Source: Pseudomonas sp. FP2309 (GTDB lineage Bacteria > Pseudomonadota > Gammaproteobacteria > Pseudomonadales > Pseudomonadaceae). From it: 64,000 nt of DNA. The notes under the pieces are model-generated. The model was not told where the DNA came from. It saw nothing but the letters and a program-made list of their open reading frames with translations, and did no database searches. Location of the stretch: NCBI RefSeq assembly GCF_030687575.1, contig NZ_CP117439.1, forward strand, positions 3,463,501 to 3,527,500. The letters run 5' to 3'. This document shows, one piece after another, positions 26,990 through 40,132 of this stretch; position 1 is the first letter of the stretch; the number at the start of each line of letters is the position of its first letter. The position numbers and the translations under genes are program-made.

Positions 26990-27529
26990 TCAGTCCTTGG
27001 TGCCGGTCATGCTCTGCAACACACCATCACGCCGAATCAAGCCATGGAACAAGGCCGCCGCCAGGTGCACCAGCACCGTGAAAAACAGCAGGTACGCCAA
27101 AAACCCATGGGCCTTGCGCAAGAGCGCAAACAACGGCGCGTCAGCACCCACCAGGGCCGGCAACTGCACCGAGGAGCTGAGCATCACCGGGTCACCCGCG
27201 GCCGAAATCATCGCCCAGCCCAGTAACGGCAACACCAACATCAACCCGTAAAGCAGCACATGAGACGCCTTCGCCGCCAGCACTTGCCAGCGTGGCAAGT
27301 CGGCGGGCAACGGCGGCTGGCGCGTAGAAAAACGTACCACCAGACGCACGATCACCAACGCCAGAATCGCGATCCCCAGCGGCTTGTGCAGGTGGATCAG
27401 CCATTCATGCCGTTCAGACACCGACGCGGCCAGACCTGCGCCGATAAACAGCATGGCAATGATCATCAGCGCCATCAGCCAATGCAGCAGGCGCGCCAAG
27501 GGGGCGAAAAACCGTGGTTGAGCCTTCAT
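26990..27529 (-). CDS. Cytochrome b561 (di-heme membrane electron carrier)
   Basis: Inner-membrane electron-transfer protein of 179 residues with four predicted helices. His ligands are likely in ARLLHWLMALM (about 15), WLIHLHKPLGIAILAL (about 45-50) and the C-terminal KAHGFLAYLLFFTVLVHLAAALFHGLI. Its ATG overlaps the stop of the catalase-family gene (ATGA), so the two form one operon in which the cytochrome probably passes electrons from quinol to, or protects, the periplasmic peroxidase. This pairing is common in proteobacteria. Confidence 0.92.
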   Translation of the reverse strand: MKAQPRFFAPLARLLHWLMALMIIAMLFIGAGLAASVSERHEWLIHLHKPLGIAILALVIVRLVVRFSTRQPPLPADLPRWQVLAAKASHVLLYGLMLVLPLLGWAMISAAGDPVMLSSSVQLPALVGADAPLFALLRKAHGFLAYLLFFTVLVHLAAALFHGLIRRDGVLQSMTGTKD

Positions 27530-28608
27530 GGCTTCGACTCCTGAGGGGCACGGTGCAACGGGCCGACTTCACCGGCACGACGCAAATAGGAACTGGCATA
27601 CGCCGCCGAACGGGCAGCCAGCAGCGGGTCATTGGAGGCTTCGATGCCGCTGGGCAGAATCAGCGGGTCGAAATTGATGTCTCGGCAATCACCGTCGGCC
27701 TGGGGCTGGCTGCTCTGCAGCACGAGGGTGCCGGCGTTCAGCACCTTGTGCTCCCCCGTCCAGGTCTTGCTCGCATCGTCGAGCGGGTCGCCGGGGTTGG
27801 CCAGGGTCATGTTCAACTGCCAACGCAGGGGCCCCGCCGCCAGGCGCTGCACCAAGTCCTTTTCCAGAAAGTCGGCGCCGGACGGTGCGGTGTCGCCCGC
27901 CGCATCCTGGCTCTGGGGCGCCACAGCCCAGCGCACGGCCTGGCGTTTGCCTTCGGCACTGACCAGATAGAACGCGTTGATGCCGTTATAGGTTTCGGTG
28001 GCATAGCTGGCCGACGGCTTGGCGGTCTTGACCCACGCCAGGAACGGCGCCGTTTCCGGATGCGCGGCAAAAAACGCCGGCATGCTCGCAGGGTTCTGCT
28101 TGCCGGTGGCCGGGTCCGGTGCGCCAGCCTTGAGCAACTGATAGAACGCCTCGGGCGTGCCCACCGGGAACACCGGCATGCTGTTCATCCCCGTACGCCA
28201 TTGCTGGCCGTTTGCCTGGCTGAACTGCACGGCAAAACTGCGGATCGGCACGCTGCTGTCGGGCGCATACGGGTTACCGCTGGGCAAGGCAAACCGGCCG
28301 ATCAACGGGGTTCTGGCCTCGCTGAACATCTGGGCGCTGGAATACCCACGGACGTCGGGGCTGCTTTCGAAGTAGCCCGCCACGCAGACACCTTTGGCAT
28401 GGTTACGCCGAAAACCCGGATGCACGCCGTTGTTGGTCTCCAGCGCATTGACCAAAGTTTTAGGACGCAGGCGTTGTGGGTCGAGGGTACCGTTGACGTA
28501 GGCAAATGCCCCCGCCAAACCCGCGACCACGGCACCAATAACGGCAAGGCGCACAATCAGGCTCGTTGTACTGAGCGGGGGACGGGGCGGTGATGAGTGA
28601 TCTACCAT
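27526..28608 (-). CDS. Catalase-family peroxidase (SrpA-like)
   Basis: Heme peroxidase of 360 residues, smaller than a full catalase (about 480+). One N-terminal hydrophobic segment (about 19-40) exports or anchors it in the periplasm. The catalytic His of the catalase fold is in FRRNHAKGVCVAGYFE (about 68), followed by RSFAVQF and the AFLAWVKTAKPSASYATETYNGINAFYLV region. I chose the ATG at 28608 because GGAG lies seven bases ahead; another ATG two codons upstream is too close. It forms an operon with cytochrome b561 and is transcribed away from the ECF sigma gene. Confidence 0.9.
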   Translation of the reverse strand: MVDHSSPPRPPLSTTSLIVRLAVIGAVVAGLAGAFAYVNGTLDPQRLRPKTLVNALETNNGVHPGFRRNHAKGVCVAGYFESSPDVRGYSSAQMFSEARTPLIGRFALPSGNPYAPDSSVPIRSFAVQFSQANGQQWRTGMNSMPVFPVGTPEAFYQLLKAGAPDPATGKQNPASMPAFFAAHPETAPFLAWVKTAKPSASYATETYNGINAFYLVSAEGKRQAVRWAVAPQSQDAAGDTAPSGADFLEKDLVQRLAAGPLRWQLNMTLANPGDPLDDASKTWTGEHKVLNAGTLVLQSSQPQADGDCRDINFDPLILPSGIEASNDPLLAARSAAYASSYLRRAGEVGPLHRAPQESKP

Positions 28609-28662
28609 AAACATACTCCAGGGCCACGGGCCTTAGGGGGTCAAACAGAAGGTCGGAGCATT

Positions 28663-28689
28663 GAGACGAACGCCGAACGCCCCTATTCC
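28663..28689 (-). promoter_or_regulatory. ECF-type promoter of the peroxidase/cytochrome b561 operon
   Basis: On the minus strand GGAATA (28689-28684), 15 bases, CGTCTC (28668-28663). The same two blocks with the same spacing occur in the opposite orientation before the ECF sigma gene. Confidence 0.75.
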
Positions 28690-28717
28690 CTGGCCGCGGA
28701 TTTATTTTCCAGGGTCT

Positions 28718-28744
28718 GGAATAACCTCCCGCGCCGGGCGTCTC
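28718..28744 (+). promoter_or_regulatory. ECF-type promoter of the sigma/anti-sigma operon
   Basis: GGAATA (28718-28723), 15 bases, CGTCTC (28739-28744), 35 bases before the ECF gene. ECF promoters typically have a GGAAnn -35 and a CGTCnn -10. Identity with the divergent site points to autoregulation by the neighbouring sigma factor. Confidence 0.75.
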
Positions 28745-28778
28745 TCTAGTCCCAGCGTAGTGACCAGCCAGATACCCC

Positions 28779-29285
28779 ATGCATGAACTCGACGAACTGT
28801 TACGTGAACTCATCCCCAGGCTGCGGCGTTTTGCCGTGTCCCTGACCCGTAACGCCAGCAGCGCCGATGACTTGGTGCAGGCCACTCTGGAACGGGCGAT
28901 CACCCGCTGGGCCGACAAACGGCCGGAAGGTGATCTGCGGGCGTGGCTGTTCTCGATTCTTTACCGGCAGTTCCTTGATGCTCATCGGCGCACCCGGCGC
29001 TATGCGCGCATGCTGGAGTTCTTCACCGGCCGCGAGGACGCGCAACCCTCAGTGGAGCGCACGGTGATCGCCCAGTCGACCCTGCAAGCTTTCGATCAAC
29101 TCAGCACCGAACAGCGCGCGTTGCTGCTGTGGGTGTCAGTGGAAGGCTTGAGCTACAAGGAAGTCGCGGAAATACTCGATGTACCGCTTGGCACCGTGAT
29201 GTCACGCCTGTCCCGCGCGCGCCAAGCCTTGCGCCTACTCAGCGATGGCGAAATTACCAGCCCTTCTCTGCGGATACTCAAATGA
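28779..29285 (+). CDS. ECF-subfamily RNA polymerase sigma factor
   Basis: The 168-residue protein has region 2 (about 5-75, RRFAVSLTRNASSADDLVQATLERAI ... LRAWLFSILYRQFLDAHRR in two parts) and region 4 (about 105-160, DQLSTEQRALLLWVSVEGLSYKEVAEIL ... LGTVMSRLSRARQAL). It is co-transcribed with an anti-sigma gene (ATGA overlap) and diverges from a peroxidase/cytochrome operon; both promoters share GGAATA-N15-CGTCTC. This suggests an oxidative or redox stress response factor. The exact signal is unknown. Confidence 0.93.
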   Translation: MHELDELLRELIPRLRRFAVSLTRNASSADDLVQATLERAITRWADKRPEGDLRAWLFSILYRQFLDAHRRTRRYARMLEFFTGREDAQPSVERTVIAQSTLQAFDQLSTEQRALLLWVSVEGLSYKEVAEILDVPLGTVMSRLSRARQALRLLSDGEITSPSLRILK

Positions 29286-30019
29286 TCAGCCTGCCCCCCA
29301 GCGAACGCGACCTGCATGCTTATGTCGATCACCAACTCCTGGAGAGCGATCGGCGCATCCTCGAAACATGGCTGGCCGCCCACCCCGATGCGGCGGCTCA
29401 GGTGAGCGCCTGGCAGCAGGATGCCCAGTTGCTGCGCGCCTCATTGAGCGGCGCCCTGCACCAGCCGGCCAACCCAAACCTGGACCCGACGCGGGTTCGC
29501 CAGCGCCTCAAGCACCAATCGCGTCGTCACGTCGCCAGCGCGGCGGTGCTGCTGATTGCCGTGAGCCTGGGCGGCGTCGGCGGCTGGCATGCACGCCAAG
29601 CCACGCAACCACCGATGCTGCCGATGGCCGATGCAATGCAAGCGTTCCGCCTGTTCGCCCAGGACGGCATCATGCCCGCCGATTACAACGCCCAGGACAG
29701 CGGCACCATGCAGGCCTGGCTCGACCGCTACTTCAAGCAGGCCCGCCGCCTGCCGGACTTGAGCCAAGCAGGCTTCAAGCCGGTCAGCGGGCGTCTGCTC
29801 ACCACCGATCAAGGCGCCGCCGCCATGGTGCTCTATGAAGATCCGCAAGGGCGGCGCATCAGCTTCTACATCCGCCCACCGGGTCCGGACAACGGTTTTC
29901 TGCCCCGTGGCGAGCGCACGGCCGATGGCTTGCAGGCGCGCTATTGGTCCGCAGACGGCTACAACTATGCGGTGGTCGGTCCTGTGAACCAGGCGTCTGC
30001 ATCGATGCTCACGTTTTAG
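29282..30019 (+). CDS. Anti-sigma factor, membrane-anchored
   Basis: Holds the upstream ECF sigma factor inactive until a signal arrives. The 245 residues begin with a zinc-less anti-sigma domain (about 1-75, ERDLHAYVDHQLLESDRRILETWLAAHPDAAAQVSAW split in two) and one membrane helix (about 83-103, HVASAAVLLIAVSLGGVGGW). The periplasmic domain contains QAGFKPVSGRLLTTDQGAAAMVLYED. There are no CHCC zinc residues, so the redox signal is not sensed by a typical zinc anti-sigma switch. The ATG at 29282 overlaps the sigma stop. Confidence 0.88.
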   Translation: MISLPPSERDLHAYVDHQLLESDRRILETWLAAHPDAAAQVSAWQQDAQLLRASLSGALHQPANPNLDPTRVRQRLKHQSRRHVASAAVLLIAVSLGGVGGWHARQATQPPMLPMADAMQAFRLFAQDGIMPADYNAQDSGTMQAWLDRYFKQARRLPDLSQAGFKPVSGRLLTTDQGAAAMVLYEDPQGRRISFYIRPPGPDNGFLPRGERTADGLQARYWSADGYNYAVVGPVNQASASMLTF

Positions 30020-31248: not shown

Positions 31249-31287
31249 GCGCCTTTTTACGCCCCTAGCCGAGTGATCGCGCCGTTC

Positions 31288-32589
31288 ATGCATACCCTTG
31301 CCCAACTCAAGGCCGGCCAATTGGCCGGCATCACGCGCCTGGACCTGTCCTGCGGGCTCACCGAGTTTCCCCGGGAAATCTTCGAACTGGCCGACTCCCT
31401 GGAAATCCTCAACCTCAGCGGCAATGCCCTGAACAGCCTGCCCGACGACCTGCACCGCCTGCCGCACTTGCGCGTACTGTTCTGCTCCGACAACGCCTTT
31501 ACCGAACTGCCGGCGTGCCTGGGGCAGTGCGCGCAGTTGAGCATGATCGGCTTCAAGGCCAACCGCATCAGTCACGTGCCCGCCGCCGCCCTGCCGCCGT
31601 TGCTGCGTTGGTTGATCCTCACCGACAACTGCATCAGCCAATTACCCGGCGAATTGGGCCAGCGTCCACGCCTGCAAAAACTGATGCTGGCCGGCAACCA
31701 ACTGACGGTGCTGCCGCAGAGCCTGGCCCAGTGTCACAACCTTGAATTGCTGCGCATCGCCGCCAACCGTTTCACCCACCTGCCGGCGTGGCTGCTGGCG
31801 CTGCCGAACCTGACGTGGCTGGCCTATGCCGGTAACCCGGTGGAAATGGCGGTCGAGGTGGCGGCGAACGACACAACGCCGAATATTTCCTGGGCGGAAC
31901 TGGAACTGGCCGAAGTGCTGGGCGAAGGTGCCTCGGGAGTCATTCACAAGGCGCTTTGGACACCACAAGCATTGCCCGTCGCCGTCAAGCTCTACAAAGG
32001 CACCATCACCAGCGACGGCTCGCCGCTGCACGAGATGCAGGCCTGCATCGCAGCAGGCTTGCACCCCAACCTGATCAACGTCCAGGGCCGCGTCGTTGGC
32101 CACCCCGATGGCCAGGCGGCCCTGGTGATGGACCTGATCGACCCCAGCTACCGCAACCTCGCGGCCCTGCCCAGTCTGGCCTCGTGCAGCCGCGACATCT
32201 ACGAGCCCACTGCGCGTTTCAGCGCACAAGTGGCCTTGCGCATGGCCAGGGGGATCGCCTCGGTGGCCGCGCACTTACACCGGCGCGGCATCACCCATGG
32301 CGACCTGTACGGCCACAATATTCTGTGGAATGAAGCGGGCGATTGCCTGTTGGGGGACTTCGGCGCGGCGTCGTTCCACGCCTTGGCGGACACCTCTGAA
32401 ACCCGGGCATTGCAGCGTATTGAAGTGCGGGCGTTCGGGGTGTTATTGCGGGAGTTGCTGGAACGTGTTGAGGCGCCGGTGAGCGACGCACTGGTCGCGC
32501 TGCAGACACGCTGCTGTCAGCCCGATGTGCTGGCGCGACCAGGGTTCGACGAAATCGAAAACCTCCTGAACGCTGTGCAACAGGACTGA
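31288..32589 (+). CDS. Leucine-rich-repeat protein with C-terminal Ser/Thr kinase-like domain
   Basis: A 433-residue two-part protein. Residues about 8-190 hold seven or so 23-residue leucine-rich repeats (LEILNLSGNALNSLPDDLHRLP and similar). Residues about 205-430 form a eukaryotic-like kinase: glycine loop LGEGASGVIHKALW, Lys in VAVKLYKG (about 233), catalytic loop THGDLYGHNILWN (HRD replaced by HGD, about 337) and GDFGAA (about 357). All key residues are present, so it may be active. There is no signal peptide. The start is the ATG at 31288; a GTG five codons upstream is possible. The role is unknown. Confidence 0.85.
   Translation: MHTLAQLKAGQLAGITRLDLSCGLTEFPREIFELADSLEILNLSGNALNSLPDDLHRLPHLRVLFCSDNAFTELPACLGQCAQLSMIGFKANRISHVPAAALPPLLRWLILTDNCISQLPGELGQRPRLQKLMLAGNQLTVLPQSLAQCHNLELLRIAANRFTHLPAWLLALPNLTWLAYAGNPVEMAVEVAANDTTPNISWAELELAEVLGEGASGVIHKALWTPQALPVAVKLYKGTITSDGSPLHEMQACIAAGLHPNLINVQGRVVGHPDGQAALVMDLIDPSYRNLAALPSLASCSRDIYEPTARFSAQVALRMARGIASVAAHLHRRGITHGDLYGHNILWNEAGDCLLGDFGAASFHALADTSETRALQRIEVRAFGVLLRELLERVEAPVSDALVALQTRCCQPDVLARPGFDEIENLLNAVQQD

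Positions 32590-38032: not shown

Positions 38033-40132
<2,100 letters not shown>

Follow-up and report, generated by a model that had tools for sequence, protein, structure and literature searches.

Two back-to-back promoters for an extracytoplasmic function (ECF) sigma factor of the ECF26 type are predicted in Pseudomonas sp. FP2309, in a stretch of 64,000 nucleotides of contig NZ_CP117439.1 (positions 3,463,501 to 3,527,500), referred to here as the window. One predicted promoter type serves both the operon of the sigma factor and its membrane anti-sigma factor and a divergent operon encoding a catalase-related peroxidase and a cytochrome b561. We consider it highly probable that both sites belong to the adjacent sigma factor, a likely orthologue of PrtI, and that they form part of the regulatory circuit described below. 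The features of the locus are:

26990..27529, minus strand: cytochrome b561, 179 aa (PF01292; PDB 5oc0, E 2.4e-20)
27526..28614 (or start 28608), minus strand: catalase-related heme peroxidase (PF00199, E 1e-29; PDB 3e4w, E 1.3e-57)
28663..28689, minus strand: predicted ECF26-type promoter of the peroxidase/b561 operon (-35 GGAATA 28689-28684, N15, -10 CGTCTC 28668-28663)
28718..28744, plus strand: predicted ECF26-type promoter of the sigma/anti-sigma operon (-35 GGAATA 28718-28723, N15, -10 CGTCTC 28739-28744)
28779..29285, plus strand: ECF sigma factor, 168 aa, PrtI-like, placed in the ECF26 clade (Pfam sigma70 r2/r4; tree with Sinorhizobium meliloti RpoE6)
29282..30019, plus strand: membrane anti-sigma factor, 245 aa, PrtR-like (most hydrophobic stretch 84-102)

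A first-pass annotation of the window had reported two copies of GGAATA-N15-CGTCTC, one per strand and each facing the appropriate gene, and both were found where it had placed them, as GGAATA-GGGGCGTTCGGCGTT-CGTCTC on the minus strand and GGAATA-ACCTCCCGCGCCGGG-CGTCTC on the plus strand. The agreement it described holds for the hexamers and the length of the spacer, but the spacer sequences differ. The sites stand back to back in the intergenic region 28615-28778, with 28 bases separating their -35 elements. The -10 element is 34 nt from the ATG of the ECF gene; on the peroxidase side this distance is 48 or 54 nt, depending on whether the start is ATG 28614 or, as judged by Shine-Dalgarno spacing, 28608. 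The ECF and anti-sigma genes are joined by an ATGA overlap, and the peroxidase and b561 genes by an overlap of 4 nt.

A scan of the window for GGAATA and CGTCTC with a spacer of 13-17 bases gave two matches, both at this locus, and none in 100 dinucleotide shuffles. The whole genome (5.66 Mb), scanned with a spacer of 15-16, likewise held exactly these two matches, with none in a reversed control. It could be argued that two sites in one genome, with hexamers picked after the fact by the reader of the sequence, represent a chance resemblance or serve the housekeeping sigma factor; the comparison of other genomes bears directly on this.

To this end, 149 Pseudomonas genomes were searched with the ECF protein and then with the peroxidase. 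Orthologues were accepted at E <= 1e-48 for the ECF factor (rounded; the weakest kept was 3.3e-48) and E <= 1e-100 for the peroxidase (weakest kept 3.0e-101), which left out G060, G032 and G143. The ECF orthologue was present in 108 genomes and the peroxidase in 105, with both in 105 and neither in 41. No genome had the peroxidase without the ECF factor (0/149; Fisher p 1.5e-33, the genomes being related and so not independent), and the three ECF-bearing genomes lacking the peroxidase (3/108: G063, G085 and G113) all kept the ECF-side motif. Fifty loci were read in detail, comprising the 30 best matches and 20 chosen to cover a range of identities as low as 45%. GGAATA-N15-CGTC was located upstream of the ECF gene in 49 of them, the sole miss being L052 with an ECF factor 45% identical, and a divergent motif faced the peroxidase gene in all 40 loci with an adjacent peroxidase (38 with N15, 2 with N16). 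A further set comprised the 80 best of 574 confirmed loci from named Pseudomonas, overlapping in strains with the first set. The motif was found on the peroxidase side in 79/80 and on the ECF side in 76 of the 78 whose flank includes an ECF gene. The contig of L092, 4.1 kb long, does not carry the ECF gene, and L122 (P. frederiksbergensis) is a single case with no ECF gene in the flank and an altered peroxidase-side -35 element. Altogether the 80 loci held 159 motif occurrences over 1.72 million strand-bases, approximately 155 of them at the two expected places; the search pattern in part imposes the identity of the hexamers, but it does not determine how many matches fall at the expected places. 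A chance origin of the motifs was rejected on the basis of the shuffles and these placement counts, and both sites are very likely promoters, as judged from sequence conservation.

The motifs were also retained where the two operons have been separated. Seven loci (L074-L080, e.g. L074:2649-6368) carry 3-4 kb inserted between the ECF gene and the peroxidase gene, with both motifs kept; in L074 the insert carries genes for an AMP-binding enzyme and an enoyl-CoA hydratase as well as one unassigned gene. In G146 the ECF gene and the peroxidase-b561 pair are on separate contigs, again with both motifs. Thus, 8/8 loci with separated operons have a motif immediately before the peroxidase gene and another before the ECF gene. 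Where the peroxidase gene is missing, in G085, the sole remaining motif is the ECF-side one. Rearranged orders were observed on a Pantoea plasmid (peroxidase-b561-ECF-anti-sigma) and in Methylobacterium bullatum (ECF-anti-sigma-peroxidase-b561), both with the motif at the operon head, and in M. bullatum a second copy faces a small, likely exported protein. Such a protein with its own divergent GGAATA-N15-CGTC was seen in the Methylobacterium-type loci L086:3401-3742, L197:3110-3451 and L232:3156-3497; the L086 copy has no Pfam match. Two loci with ECF/anti-sigma orthologues and no peroxidase (L044:2356-2790 and L312) have a weaker GGAATA-N15-CGTA directed away from the ECF gene; the one in L044 points to a gene for a SnoaL-like protein.

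To learn which gene the motif follows, we turned to the whole phylum, where a search with a peroxidase profile gave 45 matches in 39 of 398 genomes. Forty loci were read, consisting of 39 of these matches (the six best Pseudomonas ones left out) and one paralogue from G044. A second set came from the family of G468, in which 55 of 150 genomes had a match, and 28 of the 30 resulting loci were read with 1.5 kb of flank. The ECF factors were classed as close (E at most 4e-58; 21 loci), of a distant type (E at least 3e-46; 10 loci) or not present in the flank read (37 loci). The motif was in promoter position in 21/21 loci with the close ECF factor, 0/10 with the other type and 0/37 with no ECF gene seen. 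Among the 21, the spacer is N16 in one locus, and in one the ECF-side site reads CGTT. An isolated CGTT match in L218, ~5 kb away from its peroxidase gene, was left out of the count. The idea that the motif is a property of the peroxidase gene itself was rejected, as the 37 peroxidase loci with no ECF gene seen, read with 1.5 kb of flank in the 28-locus set, lack a promoter-placed motif. This tracking of the sigma subtype (21/21 versus 0/47) adds to the shuffles and the ~155 of 159 expected placements, and we regard chance resemblance or housekeeping use as very improbable. The closed circuit proposed in the first-pass annotation, in which the ECF factor would direct its own synthesis and that of the anti-sigma factor, the peroxidase and b561, is borne out as far as motif conservation, retention in separated operons and co-variation with the ECF subtype can indicate.

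The same comparison demonstrated that b561 adjoins the peroxidase gene in 29/37 loci with no ECF gene seen (20/28 phylum-wide, 9/9 in the second set), and peroxidase-b561 is thus a unit of its own; the remaining eight are among the loci whose peroxidase is more distantly related (E 3e-86 or weaker). The pair seems to have been taken up by different ECF factors. Peroxidase-b561 pairs adjoining other ECF subtypes, with the motif absent, were seen in L268, L274, L277, L278 and L281-L283 and suggest repeated regulatory capture of the same enzymes. A second catalase-family peroxidase (~43% identical in L082) occurs near a different ECF factor (~36-40%) in L082:2104-5076 and L236, with no GGAATA-N15-CGTC there; by its sequence it is an independent ECF-catalase pairing in some Pseudomonas.

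The predicted promoter sequence GGAATA-N15-CGTCTC is the published ECF26 consensus as given in PMC6180224. In that source, S. meliloti ECF26 promoters were mapped by 5' RACE (rapid amplification of cDNA ends) or RNA-seq (Table 1), including rpoE4, TCATGGAATAAGCGAGGCAGCTCGCTCGTCTCTACGCCG, i.e. GGAATA-N16-CGTCTC, SMc04291 (GGAATA-N16-CGTCTC) and sorT (GGAATT-N15-CGTCTC), and the consensus across species is given as GGAATA / GT (section 7). The FP2309 sites have the -35 GGAATA, the -10 (C)GT and a spacer within 15-16 that characterize this group. Likewise, RpoE1, RpoE3, RpoE4 and RpoE6 of S. meliloti are described with GGAAT(A/T)-N15/16-CGTCTC at several targets, ECF26 factors there are followed by an anti-sigma gene (EcfR1/3/4/6) whose product has one transmembrane segment and a periplasmic domain, and RpoE6 has a divergent accessory target, in that case a serine protease (PMC6180224). 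RpoE1 and RpoE3 raise a four-transmembrane, cytochrome b-like gene of the YceJ family (PMC6180224), a parallel to the b561 found here. The responses differ: RpoE1 and RpoE4 control the oxidation of sulfite and respond to compounds that generate it, whereas the FP2309 factor is tied to a catalase-related peroxidase. RpoE6 was located on pSymA (L237) through its published promoter string and the divergent protease gene. In a 30-row tree one clade with support 97/99 held both RpoE6 and the FP2309 ECF factor, while 12 other sigma factors from the FP2309 genome fell outside it; forks within the clade are open, several branches are long, and the other ECF factors of FP2309 and references of groups such as ECF11, ECF15 and ECF16 are outside the tree.

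Among Pseudomonas systems, the sigma/anti-sigma pair appears to be PrtI/PrtR, with the ECF factor a likely orthologue of PrtI. In P. fluorescens LS107d2 and WH6 the ECF gene likewise precedes that of a transmembrane anti-sigma factor; in WH6 prtI is directly upstream of prtR, and both genes belong to the core of WH6, SBW25, Pf-5 and Pf0-1 (PMC2997014, in part). A homologue named PrtR by its source is 70% identical to the FP2309 anti-sigma factor, and a survey of Burkholderia cepacia complex (Bcc) sigma factors termed EcfB/BCAL3478 PrtI-like and, in the part available, left its target open (PMC2194791). A difference is that PrtI/PrtR are described for control of protease and germination-arrest factor (GAF), and the excerpted text of PMC2997014 names no direct target of the pair, neither a peroxidase/b561 operon nor any other, and no ECF26 promoter. 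In the literature searched, partly available as excerpts, no paper was met that connects a peroxidase-b561 operon with an ECF26 or PrtI factor, apart from the co-induction in Burkholderia cenocepacia described below. The first-pass annotation had missed both that the motif is a known ECF26 consensus and that the pair, so far as the comparisons go, matches PrtI/PrtR.

An ECF/anti-sigma pair for oxidative stress is likewise known in the RpoE-ChrR type (ECF11), represented by PSPTO_1043/1042, where the factor affects the catalase gene katG (PMC5507510, in part). Its promoter form is different (TGATC...CGTA; PMC5507510), and the ChrR-like anti-sigma factor has a zinc domain and a cupin-like fold (PMC3597554, in part), whereas the FP2309 anti-sigma factor is free of cysteine. 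PSPTO_1043 (PMC5507510) and the known P. syringae ECF factors (ECF11, ECF18 and FecI-type; PMC3597554) were set aside as matches, belonging to other groups or having another promoter.

The regulon defined by the motif is local only, as far as the genome sequence can tell. A search for copies before other redox genes, put forward in the first-pass annotation, yielded nothing: scans of the FP2309 genome for the exact motif, for GGAATA...CGTC and for GGAAT-N16/17-CGTCT revealed no further promoter-placed site. The relaxed GGAATA...CGTC pattern gave nine matches compared to seven in the reversed control, and the seven extra matches are thus at chance level. None of the seven is placed like a promoter: five are within long reading frames, one is intergenic and oriented away from the nearest start, and one is ~800 bases from the next minus-strand frame of at least 100 aa (shorter frames not being listed there). 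A third match of the motif scans in the window, 38500-38525 on the minus strand, falls within a 684-aa reading frame.

The predicted peroxidase has a hydrophobic N-terminal stretch (residues 19-37), an anchor or signal, and a catalase domain in which His72, Asn144 and Tyr339 align with active-site residues of catalases, presumably the catalytic His, the distal Asn and the proximal Tyr; it is accordingly classed, by sequence, as a catalase-related peroxidase. The nearest PDB sequence, 3e4w, which we take to be MAP-2744c, has Gln at the position of the distal Asn by profile alignment; the FP2309 protein is further set apart by its hydrophobic N-terminus and b561 partner. The b561 has the predicted four-helix form of CybB-type proteins, and its His16, 48, 141 and 155, presumably the heme ligands, are invariant in six homologues. 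All four align with His of 5oc0, the only relative among PDB sequences, a cytochrome b561 that we take to be E. coli CybB. CybB has been described as a superoxide:ubiquinone oxidoreductase (PMC9113575; PMC11869295, both in part), an activity that runs opposite to a flow from quinol through b561 to the peroxidase. The b561 may thus act as a superoxide oxidase that converts superoxide to O2 and passes the electrons into ubiquinone, the peroxidase independently removing H2O2 or organic peroxides with another reductant. The His match to 5oc0 and the described activity of CybB point this way, although the b561-peroxidase linkage in loci with no ECF gene seen and the 4-nt gene overlap suit a direct electron partner equally well; we give this division of labour a chance just short of even. 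A quinol-fed peroxidase, as suggested in the first-pass annotation, stands as a conjecture, since the relatives of the b561 also include a protein reported to be a superoxide oxidase. A b561 gene linked to an exported partner, which responds to superoxide stress, is likewise known from BcnA-LcoA of B. cenocepacia, with the difference that the partner there is a lipocalin; that paper mentions neither "sigma factor" nor "ECF" (PMC9113575).

The anti-sigma factor contains no cysteine at all and lacks the Hx3Cx2C motif of zinc anti-sigma factors (ZAS/ChrR type), a stronger result than the absence of redox zinc cysteines noted in the first-pass annotation. Across 166 loci, close-strain repeats included, the protein has no cysteine in 147 and one in 19. 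It has the layout of ECF26-type anti-sigma factors, i.e. an N-terminal anti-sigma domain of helices, a single hydrophobic stretch and a periplasmic C-terminal sheet domain. The N-terminal part matches the ChrR anti-sigma domain weakly. Pfam zf-HC2 gave weak matches in 33/41 homologues (best E 0.003) and none for the FP2309 protein, and we read this part as a zinc-less relative of the zf-HC2 domain. The periplasmic part alone aligned weakly with MucB, and it resembles the RseB/MucB C-terminal domain, weakly in sequence. The full-length profile found nothing against MucB (E 0.54), and a search of PDB sequences with an anti-sigma profile gave nothing convincing (best E 0.5). The suggestion that the signal comes through the periplasmic domain is thereby supported in part, namely by the lack of redox cysteines and by a folded domain where a signal could enter.

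We hypothesize that, at rest, the single-pass anti-sigma factor would hold the sigma factor. The trigger would be periplasmic oxidative damage and not the oxidation of thiols; it would act on the cysteine-free RseB/MucB-C-like domain, and proteolysis or a conformational change of the anti-sigma factor would probably release the sigma factor. This would amplify its own synthesis, with the co-made anti-sigma factor resetting the system, and direct production of the putative membrane-anchored periplasmic peroxidase and its b561 partner. The b561 may pass quinol electrons to the peroxidase or oxidize superoxide into the quinone pool, and with either chemistry the pair would guard the periplasmic face of the membrane.

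Evidence on the signal comes from B. cenocepacia biofilms treated with H2O2, in which quantitative PCR showed the putative catalase BCAL3477 up 1.7, 6.5 and 23.1 fold and the sigma factor BCAL3478 non-significantly, 5.5 and 16.6 fold (PMC2830190, in part), at time points taken from the text as 15, 30 and 60 min. The authors noted that these divergent neighbours share one pattern (PMC2830190). The b561-peroxidase / ECF-anti-sigma arrangement with both motifs was present in 12/28 loci of the G468 family, all from one genus taken as Burkholderia.

Several observations weigh against the proposed identity and circuit. Induction of BCAL3477/3478 was late, the authors judged the trigger of the catalase to be indirect, and NaOCl for 5 min left both genes unchanged (PMC2830190). 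Not all ECF26 genes of S. meliloti fit the consensus: some of the mapped promoters deviate from it, and those of rpoE3 and rpoE6 are described as RpoD/RpoH-like (PMC6180224). Two of the 80 named loci, L154 and L123, lack the strict motif upstream of the ECF gene. PrtI/PrtR are known for temperature regulation of a protease (a title cited in PMC2997014), and prtR is needed for GAF activity (PMC2997014); our model leaves both unexplained. The motif is also absent from the flanks read of both serralysin-type protease genes in this genome, which speaks against direct protease control only. One alternative keeps the circuit and assigns it another natural signal, envelope or temperature stress; damaged lipids or proteins would be sensed by the RseB/MucB-C-like domain, and an envelope response would have the peroxidase/b561 pair as one output. 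We hold this possible, at appreciably less than an even chance. A further and rather unlikely proposal, offered tentatively, is that PrtR-type anti-sigma factors unite the roles of RseA and the RseB/MucB C-terminal domain in one chain. Such a protein would provide a thiol-free reading of a late product of periplasmic oxidation (an oxidized lipid, protein or quinone), the sigma factor would build a peroxidase anchored in the membrane and coupled to quinone, and the reported effects on protease, temperature response and GAF would lie downstream of this redox function.

With the circuit as we propose it, the PrtI/PrtR pair, studied via protease and germination-arrest-factor phenotypes that may be indirect, gains a concrete, conserved candidate target and a promoter. 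Periplasmic oxidative damage could be sensed in this way without thiols, and the two predicted promoters could provide a simple reporter for finding the signal. The peroxidase-b561 pair is common also without this sigma factor, and its chemistry thus matters beyond the circuit.

Elsewhere in the window, a plus-strand reading frame at 31273-32589 resembles leucine-rich repeats followed by a protein-kinase-like region, as seen from the list of open reading frames only.
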